Of a stretch of DNA of 64,000 nt, positions 1-62,814 are shown piece after piece. Made by a program: the position numbers and the translations under genes. The notes under the pieces are model-generated. The model worked only from the letters and a program-made list of their open reading frames with translations. It did not search any database and had not been told where the DNA came from. The DNA lies in the NCBI GenBank assembly GCA_963921795.1, contig OY997643.1, positions 9,517,033 through 9,581,032 on the forward strand, in the 5' to 3' direction. Source of the DNA: Nannobrachium achirus. Its lineage: Eukaryota; Chordata; Actinopteri; Myctophiformes; Myctophidae. Numbering within the stretch: position 1 is the first letter of the stretch; each line of letters begins with the position of its first letter.

Positions 1-1023
1 AAGGTAATGCTCATATCTGGCTGTAAGTTCAATGTCACGTTGTGAACCTTGTTTTGTTGGCACTAGGGCTGGGCCATTAACCGAAACTTCATATCGAAAC
101 CGATATTTTGAACCTCTACCCGAGTTAATCAAGCTTGCCAAAGTTTGAAATAATCACAATGTTGATATTAACCACTCTGCTAGTTTTGCTAGTTTTTCGC
201 TTAAGTGACACAACATTCTTCAAAATACACACACACAAATTTCTGGTATCATATTCCAAACATTCTAAAACATGGGTCTTCAACAGGGGGTCCGGGACCC
301 CTAGGGGGTCCTCAGAGTTACTACAGGGGGTCCTCCAAATCTCTGTGTGATAGAAACCTTTTCCCCCCTTTTTTATATTAACCACTTGAACCCTAGTGTT
401 CATATTCTGAGAACTTTAGCCAAAAATAGCAGATCTACAAGCTCACAACGCCTCGTGTTGCGAGGCGTTGTGAGCTTGTAGATCTGCTATTTTTGGCTAA
501 GAGCGTTGGTGTAGAGGGGAAAAAGAGCAGACTAAGTACAGAGTGAAAGGTCAAGTTTATTAAGCATTGACGGTTCAAGTGGTTAAATATCTGAAAACAC
601 AAATTTACATGAATCCAAAATACACTGATAATTGTGCTGTCAAACAATGAAACAATATGGAATCTATGAACAGGTTGTGGGGGTCCCCGCTTCATCTCTC
701 TCTCAACTAAGGGGTCCTTGGCCTGAAAACGTTTAAGACCCCTGGCTTAAGTGACACAAAATTCTTCAAAATACACACACACAAATTTCTGTGATCATAT
801 TCCAAACATTCTTAAAATGTCAGGTCAAGGAGGACCTTTTTTTTGGCTCACATACTGCGGTCCAAATATTACTTGTAAGTTGTATTAGGCCTACATTAGA
901 TTGGCCAAGAAGTGGAAACATTTAAAATTTGACGTGACAAATGAATACATCACTTTCATCTTGAATCTTTTTAATTATGGAGTGTCTGTCCATTCTCTTA
1001 TTTGTTTTTTCCTCATCTTTCAG
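1..1023. mobile_element. tmem128 intron: family A hAT-like MITE between 75-bp direct repeats
   Basis: A MITE of about 475 bp (271-745) begins near GGGTCTTCAACAGGGGGTCC and ends GTTTAAGACCCCTGG. Its centre is a perfect hairpin, 416-500, with 40-bp arms and loop TGTTG. The element is bracketed by near-identical segments at 200-270 and 746-817. At the left edge (about 65-115) is a fragment beginning AGGGCTGGGCCATTAACCG, the end of another MITE family. Confidence 0.7.
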
Positions 1024-1156
1024 GCCAAGAGGAGAAAGATATAAAACCTCTGCCTCGCATTAATAGCCACAACATCTTCTGGATCCTAGCCTCTGTGGGC
1101 ATCACATACTATGTGGACTTCATCAATGTCATCCTGGAGAGTGGTGATATTAAAAG
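1024..1156 (+). CDS. tmem128: tmem128 coding exon (first one visible)
   Basis: The acceptor is TTTCAG before 1024 and the donor is AAAAG/GTGTTG after 1156. It encodes [18 protein letters not shown] and the first membrane helix ([15 protein letters not shown]). It starts with the last two bases of a codon split with an exon outside the window and ends with AG of a serine codon completed by the next exon. Confidence 0.9.
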
Positions 1157-4100
1157 GTGTTGCAGATATTGAACGTACACACGCATGCACGCATATTAAC
1201 CATAGGAAGTATTACGTTGTTTTTAATAGCACAGGCTAACAACATTCCAAAGGGCTGGACCACGCATGGACAAATTACATCAACCTGCGACAGGCGCTGT
1301 ACCCCTTGAGTAAAAAAATGTTTTTAATTTTACATTTCAGTTACAGAGGCAATCATAATGCATCCTTTTAAGGTTGCATTGTTTGTGGAACTGTAAGTTT
1401 AAATGCCATGTTTTCCTAGAATAATAATAATAATGAGGGCAAACAACACAGGTATTGCCATTGAGTTAGTTAGACGGATTGTATACAGTGATATATGTTT
1501 TCCTATCCTAGCACAATACTATGGTTAGTATCGTAGTGCAGGGAACTGCAACATTAAAAAAAAGAAGACCAAATATTAGTTTTTCGGCCCACAAAAAGGA
1601 TCCAAATCCACCCAGTAAGTCCTTTCGTGTGACGTCCAGGGCAGGAATTTCAGCGAGGCCATGAAGGCTATGGCTGTTGTTGCCCCTCAGTTTGGCCTTG
1701 TGCCCCTCTACCTGAGGCCACAGTGGCCTTAATGCCCCAGATGTCTGTACCACTTTCTCCTCTGTCTCTGTCTTGTCAGTCTCTTTCTTGTCATGTAGTG
1801 TCTTTTGTTGAGTCTCCATCTTTAAACCTAGCCTGACACTTCAGTCCGCACATCACCCCCCCCCTGTTGGTGGGTGGTTTGTAGTGTGGACTGAAGCTGC
1901 ACATATTTTATTCTATTTCGAGCGCGCCTGAAGAGCGGGCGCATTGAATGGGCCAATCAGGGTTGTATGCTTGGGGCACGTGAACTCTATGCTCCGGTCC
2001 CAGCCCCCTCCAAACAGAGCTCTTGAGCTCACGTGAGACTCGCTCGTGGACTCTGATTGGTGTCCTCTGCCCACGTGAGAGTCTAGTGGACTCTGATTGG
2101 TCCGTGAAAACTGTCATGGCGGAGTCAGACTCGACTCGTATTATTTTAATAAACTATGAAATAGTGCCGTTTCCTCACGTTTTAATACCATTTTGCACTA
2201 ACGTAAACATGCAGACATATAATATGTTTTGAGAAATAACGTATTTATGCAATGTCACGCCACGTCGCCGTCGCGTGTGTGTGTGTGTGTGTGTGTGTAT
2301 GTGTGTGTGTGTGTGTGTGTGACGTCAATAGGCTTTAGCCCGCCCACGCCGAAGTAGAATCTGCCCTAGTAATCTCAGACTCTCCCGGAGTGAAACGTAG
2401 TGAACGTAGTGTGAGATGTCTGGCGCTCGCAGTCAGGCAACTTTAAACCAATCCGGTATATTTGATTTGCGCATGGCTGAGCGTGGATCAGATTGTAAAT
2501 ACCATAATATAGACTACTACAGATAGACTACGTTAAATTCTAAATTAATTAATTCTTTCAATGAACTAAATTCTAAAATGTTGTTTTATTTGATGGCCTT
2601 CCTGCCCTGGCATTTGGCCTTTGTGCCCTCTAACAATGCACAACACGAAAGGCCAAGTGGAAAGATACCTGCGCTGTATGGGTGACGTCGATCCCTTCTC
2701 CTATTCGTATACTAGTGCGTATCGTGACTGTAGCCAAAATAATAACCTTTGTTTGTTTTCTCAGTTGGTGGTTCAACGTGGGATTGATGCTGCTTGGAGT
2801 GTGCTTGTCGCTGGCCATGTTTTGCATTGTGTACCTGGAGTGGTTCAAAGGCATCCAGCATTACGACCAGGAGTATCCTGCCATTCCCCCGGTCACCACA
2901 GCCGTCTTCATCGCAGCATCTTGCAGGTATTGTAACAAGAATCTGAACTGCCTGTGCTCTGTCCTTAGAACTACTTGAACCCCCAGCATAATTATTCTGA
3001 GTGGAACGTTCACCTAAAACACATACGGTATGTGAAACTCAAGGCCCGGTGGCCAAATCAGACCTGCGAATGAATTTTCTTTCCCGGGGGATGTTATTTA
3101 GGCCTAGAATTATTGAATGCTTTAGCTATAGAAAAATAGCAGATATACAAGCTCACAGCGCGGAAAGTCGTGAAAACTCTTTGAATATATGTATTTTTAA
3201 AGCGAACGTCTCACGTAACTCAAATTTTGCTTCTGGGTGGTCCCTGGAACTAAATATTTTGAGATGGGGGTCCGTGGCCAAATAAATATCATTTTGGGGG
3301 TCCTTCACATGAAAAGGTTTGAGAACCACTGACTCTCAAGAACAGACTAACTGAGCTCCAGTTGAGTGAAAAGGACCTTTTCTTTGACGATGGCTGGCCA
3401 GATTGCTGACATAGAAACATAGGTTTTTCAAAAAACCTTAGAAGGATTCAAAAGACACTTATAGAATCGGGTCAAAATTCGAATTTTCACAATTTTTCAA
3501 AAATAGCAGATCTACAAGCTCGCAGCGCGGCACTCGGTGCCGAGCTGTGCGCTTGTATATCTGCTATTTTTCAATAGTTAAAGTATAAAATAATGATACA
3601 CAATAATGTGTACCCGTTCTACTTCTAAATGGGTTAATTACTATTAGAACTGGCCTTCTGGTATATTGCACACACCACCATAATACTACAAGTCCCACAA
3701 TGCACTGCGAGTGCATTGGTGTGTATCGAGGGCCCGCGAGCACAAGGAGGCATATAGCCTGTGGTCAACTTTCAGCTACCGTACAGTATAAGGTTATTTA
3801 CAAAGATTACAGAGAAGTAAGAAAAAGATAAAAGAAAAGAGAGTACAGAGTACAGTAAAGCAATGATTAATTGTGGGCTCGCCTGTAACAGGCGAGCACA
3901 CTTTAGATGTTGTCATTATTTATCTATCAGTCAGACAGTAGACGGGAACTTCGGTTCCTTTCTACTCCTACATACTTAGTGAGAAAATGAAAATAAAAAC
4001 ATCAATGTGTTCAGCTTACAGTGGCGACGTGTGCTATTACTTTTTACAGCAATCGGCCAAATGGTGGCGCTGTAGGAAGCCTTCGAAAGTGCGAACTTTG

Positions 4101-61576: not shown

Positions 61577-62465
61577 AGTGGTTCTCAACCTTTTCAGGCA
61601 GCGACCCACAAAAAAATCATATTTGAACTGGGGACCCCCCACTCTGCACAACTTGGCGTAATTTGACCAATATCTAGGGTGTTGCAAGGAATGGAGTTTG
61701 TCGACGCGAGTGAAACATTTCGTGTTTTATCCGGTTTTGGGTGTTTTTTTATTTCAGTTTGGGTGTTTATTCCCCACACAACAGTCTAACAAAAAAATAA
61801 GTTATTTTCTTAACATCATTAATTTTCAAGCCTAATATGTGTAATCTTTGAGTACAGTTCGGATATTGCAGGTATGTTCAGGTATATTCATAGCCAGACA
61901 ACCAGAGAGAGAGAGAGCTGATCACTTAACATTCCAATCAATCAACTCAATATTGTCGCCAGCTGGTCTCTGAGTGAAACCTAGACTCCAACAGTGAGCA
62001 GTTGGTTAATTCTTTAAAAAATCATAACTCTTGACAGGAATGGGCTAGAGACTTACTTTTTTCCCCTAAATGCTCAGAAATGCTAGGGGCCCAAATGACG
62101 CCCCTGTGCACAAGCAATTGGAATTGTAAGTGTTGGCACTATATTTAGTTTGACTCGATCTATTCCATTGTGAAAATAGCCGATCTACATACTCACAACG
62201 CCTCGCAACGCGAAAATTTTCACAATTTCTCTTTCACAAAATGTGACAATTTGACCAAAATTCGACCGGAGGTACTTATACAAGGTCTTTAAAGCTCTTA
62301 AATTGTCACTTTAGAAATGTGCAGATGCCCTGTATACACTTTAAGTTGTTCTGTTTACTGTTTAGTGAGAAAACAACGTTAACATTTAGCTAAACATGTG
62401 GGGACCCCCCACAATATTTTAGGGGACCCCTCCGGGGGTCCCGAACCACAGGTTGAGAACCACCG
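61577..62465. mobile_element. hAT-like MITE, CAGTGGTTCTCAACC family, interrupted
   Basis: Starts CAGTGGTTCTCAACCTTTTC and ends GGTTGAGAACCACCG, like 42226-42662 but with about 400 bp of extra sequence from roughly 61655. The core at 62165-62225 has lost most of its 3' arm. Confidence 0.6.
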
Positions 62466-62587
62466 GTCTACGCCAGCTTGTGACTAAATTGGAACACATG
62501 GTTACTGCGTCCATTTGCTGAGAAGTAACGGTTTTGGACATACACGGTTTCCGCCCAACCGCGACGAATGCCTTAGTTCATCACAGG

Positions 62588-62814
62588 CTGGGGCGTCACA
62601 CCAAATTCTGGGCCCCGGGTACAAGGATTCACTGCGCCCCCCCCCCCCCCACCCCCCATGAATGTTAACTATTGAAAAATAGCAGATATACAAGCTCGGT
62701 GCCGCGCTGCGAGCTTGTAGATCTGCTATTTTTGAATAGATAACGTTATAAGGGCCCCTCCACCTTGGGCCCCAGTAACTCAGTCCCACTTTCCTACCCC
62801 TTGTGACGCCCCTG
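62588..62814. mobile_element. Short hAT MITE, 227 bp, complete, 8-bp TSD
   Basis: Exact duplication ATCACAGG at 62580-62587 and 62815-62822. Ends CTGGGGCGTCACACC / TTGTGACGCCCCTG. The core 62665-62740 shares the one-armed deletion seen at 51922-51985, marking a subfamily. Confidence 0.88.

Follow-up and report, generated by a model that had tools for sequence, protein, structure and literature searches.

A palindromic core shared by miniature transposons with different ends in the genome of Nannobrachium achirus

How do small transposons with unrelated ends come to hold one and the same palindrome? The question is raised by a stretch of 64,000 nucleotides from the myctophid fish Nannobrachium achirus (assembly GCA_963921795.1, contig OY997643.1, positions 9,517,033 to 9,581,032 of the forward strand), called here 'the window', to which all coordinates without a label refer. 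A first inspection of its letters, the sequence-only reading, had noticed a hairpin recurring inside many miniature inverted-repeat transposable elements (MITEs) and listed eight unrelated termini around it. It held that a common ancestor could not explain this, and that a spreading palindromic module, or a cruciform function, would. The answer that we consider probable is that the core is a single 61-bp palindrome, old and very successful, whose carriers are a few MITE lineages. It would have come to lie between many ends by nesting in, or joining to, other elements and by amplification under the outer ends, and would have been kept paired in the source lineages.

The core and its nesting within other elements

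The recurrent core is real. With at most three mismatches allowed, the window contains 69 copies of its half-site, AGCAGATCTACAAGC, where 100 dinucleotide shuffles averaged 1.45 (largest value 5), and each of the 23 hairpin sites named in the sequence-only reading contains at least one. In the whole genome surveyed (1,658,514,493 bases, or 1.66 Gb, in 564 contigs), the exact 15-mer was found 230,123 times, 114,999 on one strand and 115,124 on the other, while the reversed control gave 0. A 200-kb sample, for which 10 kb was read at one fixed coordinate from each of 20 contigs (11,030 N), contained 184 half-sites (about 0.9 per kb), 56 of them exact; the window is thus typical of the genome. 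By extrapolation, this corresponds to about 1.5 million half-sites genome-wide. The length of 61 bp, from AGC to GCT, was shared by 53 of the 93 hairpins collected from the window and from L001 to L028 (L labels designate further stretches of the same genome that were compared with the window). The exact-armed hairpin pattern gave 21,735 and 21,545 matches by strand genome-wide (control 0), fully symmetrical hairpins being counted on both strands. Six hairpins folded as DNA had energies of -34 to -50.8 kcal/mol, with z values of -11.4 to -19.9. A structured RNA or tRNA was ruled out, as the window contains no Rfam match at the gathering score and no tRNA. The core patterns had no match among viral contigs or among prokaryote genome contigs.

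What appears to be the clearest carrier is a MITE flanked by TTAA, a target of the piggyBac type, with the hairpin central or next to each end. Its E type, with TTAACCACTTGAACC ends, occupies 209 bp (378-586), holds the core hairpin 416-500 (85 bp, a near-perfect palindrome) and is nested in a host with GGGGTCTTCAACAGG ends, designated T8 (about 273-747). Eight filled left junctions (at most three mismatches) and nine filled right junctions (at most four) between E and its host were found in the sequence examined, and a relative with the same left end, both of its arms being of one kind, lies in different surroundings in L007. A search for the predicted empty T8 site gave 25 matches (control 0), 18 of which were inspected: 12 had remnants of the TTAA MITE, five had the right host half next to unrelated left sequence, and one, L042, was an empty host, with both host flanks, a single TTAA and no insert. 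The left host part of L042, about 50 bp long, is identical to the window copy at 33 of 33 bases, the remainder being like the L002 copy; its right part matches at 151 of 169. With TTAA on both sides of the insert and a single TTAA in the empty host, the E type has a TTAA target duplication. In at least one case, the palindrome travels as a discrete element inserted into another element.

Relatives of this MITE were found elsewhere. The core arms of E and of T4 (ends TAGGGATGGGAC) are homologous over about 100 bp; the T4 element at 32535-32972 (plus strand, target site duplication (TSD) ATTGGGAT), in which it is the left arm that corresponds to the E-type arm, thus carries a relative of the E MITE. 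The Y elements have TTAACC ends in common with E, and a hairpin adjoins each of their ends. Their TTAACCCATTTAG ends are exact at 6 of 40 arms and present with at most one mismatch at 8 of 40, in unrelated flanks; both ends are exact in one copy, L001:1012-1611, by which the Y type counts as TTAA-flanked. Two Y-type elements of the window have only their right end defined: 31834-32311 (right end CTAAATGGGTTAA), in which a half core (31875) lies towards the left and a hairpin (32202-32262) close to the right end, and 52567-53158 (right end GGGTTAA), with two hairpins (52609-52669 and 53043-53092).

A second carrier, the X MITE, has ATATCGTCGTTGTCGGG ends, and 12 of 13 pairs of such ends enclosed core arms. 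X stands free in a TA microsatellite (41580-41843, core tip shortened), and it lies whole inside T1 elements (CAGGGTTCCCCAA ends): at about 6618-6877 in the copy 6499-6992 (plus strand, TSD GTGTACTG, core 6716-6804) and at 31022-31273 in the copy 30903-31378 (plus strand, core 31094-31182). Only its left part, with a half core, is present in the T3 element (CAGTGTTTCTCAACC ends) at 18476-18823 (plus strand). A third carrier, T3b (CAGTGGTTCTCAACC ends), is complete at 42226-42662 (minus strand, TSD CATTAGAC, core 42357-42430), and its right end recurs inside the T2 elements (CAGGGTTCCCACGG ends). These lie at 7575-8098 (plus strand, TSD TACTTA), where the right part of T3b brings the core 7777-7859, and at 33714-34263 (plus strand, TSD CTTTAT, core 33917-34001).

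Chimeric elements also occur. The chimera 44179-44543 (minus strand, TSD CTCTATAG) consists of a T1 left half and a right side made of a T1 tip and a T3 interior; identity is 21/22 to T1, then 75/77 to T3, with an overlap of five bases at the junction. A 227-bp element designated T7b (62588-62814, plus strand, TSD ATCACAGG) has a single central hairpin, while its relatives L024:229-689, 1906-2367 and 5703-6228 have two Y-type cores with part of another element between them; the single hairpin is the pattern that would be expected if two hairpins had collapsed into one. Re-pairing of left and right halves through recombination at the hairpin found no support as a general rule: once Y is understood to have two hairpins, the larger flank classes combine consistently, one L007 hairpin excepted.

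Other arrangements of the core were recorded. At 47893-48625, a T3 element has apparently received another element in its hairpin arm, and a near-repeat of 9-10 bp of the arm flanks the insertion. Half cores occur within one repeat at 45020-45232 and 47320-47519, which presumably resembles Tol2-type hAT sequence, and a tandem array with a period of about 1.67 kb (L026:3127-7517) has several core hairpins per unit.

Nesting accounts for many of the unrelated ends. Several of the listed ends are those of nested or chimeric hosts, which leaves the TTAA type, X and T3b as the main core carriers, plus single cases. The idea of a spreading module is supported for part of the set, namely the E MITE in its T8 host with one empty site and X in T1 and, partly, T3. 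The dismissal of common ancestry went too far, in view of the arm shared by E and T4 and of these nested or chimeric hosts.

Ends that carry the core

Complete elements, that is, those with inverted ends and a TSD, were counted in the window and L001 to L034. The core was present in 4/4 T1, 2/2 T2, 2/2 T4 and 1/1 T8 elements (the latter in L015), and in 6/8 elements of the T3 and T3b types, among them the T3 element 43137-43498 (plus strand, core 43316-43404). T6 (CAGAGCCCTGCA ends) was represented by 49192-50479 (plus strand, TSD ATCCGAGG), with a diverged, decayed core (49947-50022) lying 152 bp off centre. For the T7 pattern (CAGTGGCGTCAG), three of six complete elements had the core, and two of these three have the related CAGGGGCGTCAC-type ends of T7b; once these two are set aside, the listed end CAGTGGCGTCAG carries the core in just 1/4. 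The core-bearing copy, 19738-20297 (plus strand, TSD GAGTAAAG), contains a T3b-type hairpin that is missing from complete sisters at 14318-14748 and 56913-57419. The terminus GGGCAACTGGTGG had a single exact occurrence, and no core-bearing element was demonstrated for it. Thus, six of the eight termini proposed to surround the core do so in TSD-bearing elements, while CAGTGGCGTCAG is mostly without core. The central position of the core was confirmed for the T1, T2 and T3/T3b elements of the window, where it lies at 0.35-0.68 of the length; it is less central in other elements.

The hosts T1, T3, T3b, T4, T6, T7 and T8 have 8-bp TSDs and inverted ends, as expected of hAT-type MITEs, whereas T2 has a 6-bp TSD in both of its elements. 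Across families, the internal region is better conserved than the ends.

A core arm was found within 350 bp inward of 8/9 ends for T1, 2/2 for T2, 15/22 for T3, 29/40 for T3b, 14/16 for CAGTGGTTCTCAAACC, 3/3 for T4 and 6/7 for T8, against 1/7 for T7 and 0/2 for T6, in which the core lies further in. As a background, 20.8% of 4,000 random 350-bp windows contain a core arm. It is possible, though less likely than nesting, that the hairpin is a module functioning in amplification, for example by bringing the ends together or priming replication, which was gained repeatedly by unrelated MITEs and selected. The proximity of the core to most ends of six families (T1, T3, T3b, CAGTGGTTCTCAAACC, T4 and T8), its near-central place in T1 to T3, and the mirrored changes between families that are rarely seen within them (see below) speak for such a module. 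Against it, T7 multiplied without the core, two complete elements of T3 type lack it, and the prevalence within families follows equally from ancestry after one insertion. A bolder version, which we regard as rather unlikely, has the hairpin as a selfish module across transposon superfamilies: MITEs gaining the core by nesting or template switching would amplify better through an extruded hairpin acting in synapsis or copying. If so, many of the small DNA transposons in a vertebrate genome would have come to contain one palindrome whose two arms co-evolve.

Mirrored divergence of the two arms

In the 17 window hairpins of 61 bp, 89.2% of cells were paired, compared to 78.7% after shuffling; cells changed on both sides numbered 76 (29.8 after shuffling), and the covariation score was 0.311 (0.139), values that were reached in 0/500 shuffles. 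A similar excess was seen for 46 distinct tips among the genomic matches listed (89.4% paired, compared to 76.1% in column-shuffled tips, maximum 79.2%). Related sequences can beat shuffles without any structure, and the contrast between and within families therefore carries more weight. For this contrast, 60 hairpins of 61 bp from the sequence examined were used: 51 fell into four families and nine were left out, as were the six outermost columns and the positions unpaired in the consensus. Between the four family consensuses, 32 changes were mirrored, 4 were one-sided, and none left both sides changed and unpaired. Within families, mirrored positions made up 14 of the 195 changed (E/T4 3/14, Y 11/145, X 0/7, T3b 0/29). 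Clustering by similarity gave 3/173 mirrored within Y and, between the three largest clusters, 14 mirrored and 2 one-sided changes; a merged cluster of X and T3b had 37/130 mirrored, which we read as the difference between X and T3b.

Changes that are mirrored between families and rarely within them suggest that the palindrome is kept or rebuilt in the source lineages, and the in-step change of the arms hints that the folded form matters for spreading. This pattern is the one that the cruciform role put forward in the sequence-only reading, still hypothetical, would predict.

The palindrome may alternatively have been rebuilt at the birth of each family without selection, if the family began with a snap-back copy of one arm and some bases beside it. 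The flanks beyond the shared core are indeed family-specific and symmetrical for about 4-9 bp in X, T3b, E, the hairpin at 46001 and the T4-type copy L027:5578, and the X, T3b and E consensuses have few unpaired positions. However, arm copying should erase mismatches, and the same A/G mismatch is found at one stem position in X, T4, 46001 and some T3b hairpins, while other stem mismatches persist in Y. On balance, we find this scenario rather doubtful. At one X stem position, A/A and C/C states exist beside A/C, so that the shared A/C mismatch is weaker proof that the palindrome had a single ancestor. These same states would favour a slow, general gene conversion between the arms in all genomic copies as the source of mirrored changes. 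Such a process is improbable in view of the 14/195 reported above. Moreover, changed pairs average about 5 per Y copy, comparable to the 3 to 9 that separate family consensuses (X copies, with about 1 each, say little), so that conversion in all copies fits poorly; the data agree with either selection for pairing or a copying of arms that accompanies amplification.

Origin of the shared centre and comparison with known systems

We propose that copies of core MITEs were inserted into other MITEs or became linked with them, these partners having mostly hAT-type ends with 8-bp TSDs, and that the composites multiplied under their outer ends, which would produce unrelated ends with a common centre. 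Template switches, and possibly collapse between two hairpins, would have yielded further chimeras with a central hairpin; X and T3b may have acquired the core in a similar way. Source lineages would keep the palindrome paired, either by selection on the folded form or because one arm is copied from the other during amplification, and dead copies would decay without mirroring. The acting transposases and the role of the hairpin are parts of this explanation that we infer. That all carriers form a single family whose ends diverged gradually around the core is very improbable: the cores and near flanks of E, T4 and Y can be aligned and Y and E have the same TTAACC ends, but the target duplications differ (TTAA, 6 bp, 8 bp), X and the E-type MITE have internal boundaries within their hosts, and an empty host exists.

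Several observations weigh against the proposed history. L042 is the sole empty host found, and it may be an unfilled copy or the product of precise excision; neither T1 nor a third X host yielded an empty version in the sequence examined. A scan for TTAA inverted ends near hairpins retrieved 5/93, three of them of E type, compared to 1.5 by re-dealing (maximum 5) and 0 to 8 for other 4-base motifs, and none were found around the X and T3b cores where they were looked for; the TTAA route thus stands for the E and Y types only. The ends of E and Y, which read TTAACCAC and TTAACCCA, lack the terminal CC[C/T]T motif of piggyBac. No flank cluster could be assigned to 93/282 arms, and both flanks were unclustered in 15/93 hairpins. 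In the window hairpins, the measures least affected by relatedness were weaker, with 17 pairs changed on both sides against 13.4 (9/500 shuffles) and 45 pair types against 41.1 (35/500). Comparisons between family pairs are not independent of each other. One-sided divergence is seen in T6 (a single decayed copy) and, for the most part, in a fourth similarity cluster of three hairpins (L029 and L031); all four clusters together gave 23 mirrored, 22 one-sided and 8 both-unpaired changes.

The search for a transposase partner bears on the same point. Many open piggyBac transposase frames exist in the genome (116/952 candidate loci scored with PF13843). At six such loci, cores were at about background density, so that an enrichment was rejected, and no matching TTAA ends (10/14 bases) were present in the 3.6 kb read at each. 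At these six loci, the core does not appear as part of a common autonomous element, and no autonomous partner was tied to it; such an element would have been the outcome that the sequence-only reading had set against its own proposal. A stretch of half a megabase (G000:C2:71346413-71843994) contains sixteen piggyBac-transposase domains on one strand, fifteen of them stop-free, and is, judged from its reading frames, a likely cluster of transposase-derived genes.

As for the rest of the window, a separate 313-bp near-perfect palindrome starting with TTAA lies at 45506-45818, with no core half-site listed inside. Matches to a D1-type dopamine receptor (37378-38943), otopetrin (25276-26424) and TMEM128 (2634-2978) form a neighbourhood that we take to be like human 4p16. 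A fragment at 58152-58829 has a weak reverse-transcriptase match, below the curated cut-off.

The rise of MITEs to huge copy numbers is a long-standing question, and here one palindrome occurs in elements that differ in their ends and in their target duplications. One genome contains filled, empty, double-hairpin and chimeric versions side by side, and the contrast of mirrored changes between families with unmirrored changes within them makes a role of the folded form directly testable. Angel and similar fish MITEs are short and near-palindromic, and resemble the core elements by description only. Six core 15-mers had no match in the literature text searched, from which no absence from print is claimed. 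The 8-bp TSDs and inverted ends of most hosts are those of hAT-type MITEs, a class assigned on these two features; T2, with its 6-bp TSD, differs, and in several hosts another element has supplied the interior. TTAA on both sides, short inverted ends and the open transposase frames in the genome recall piggyBac MITEs, but the E and Y ends have CCAC and CCCA where piggyBac has CC[C/T]T (motif from the part of PMC2872659 consulted), and no transposase was tied to them.

The portion of a piggyBac study used here (PMC11707139) describes identical 19-bp palindromic sequences at the piggyBac ends, which makes it conceivable that a palindrome near an end could serve as a binding site. Galileo elements, according to an excerpt of PMC4168063, have inverted repeats of dynamic structure, and template switching in gap repair is named there as a source of defective copies; here, by contrast, the centre is common and the ends vary. 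The closest published precedent that we found is the coral CMITEs and CMITE-IN, as presented in the main text of PMC2872659. These are MITE families that differ in their terminal inverted repeats and have a 75-bp internal region of unexplained origin in common; they duplicate TTAA at the target, include a composite that arose by insertion, and number an estimated 1,600 copies in one species. The likeness (different ends, shared interior, TTAA sites, insertion composite) is one of description, and that main text has no word beginning 'palindrom'. In N. achirus, the shared interior is palindromic, is also found in elements with 8-bp and 6-bp TSDs, and reaches 230,123 exact half-sites.

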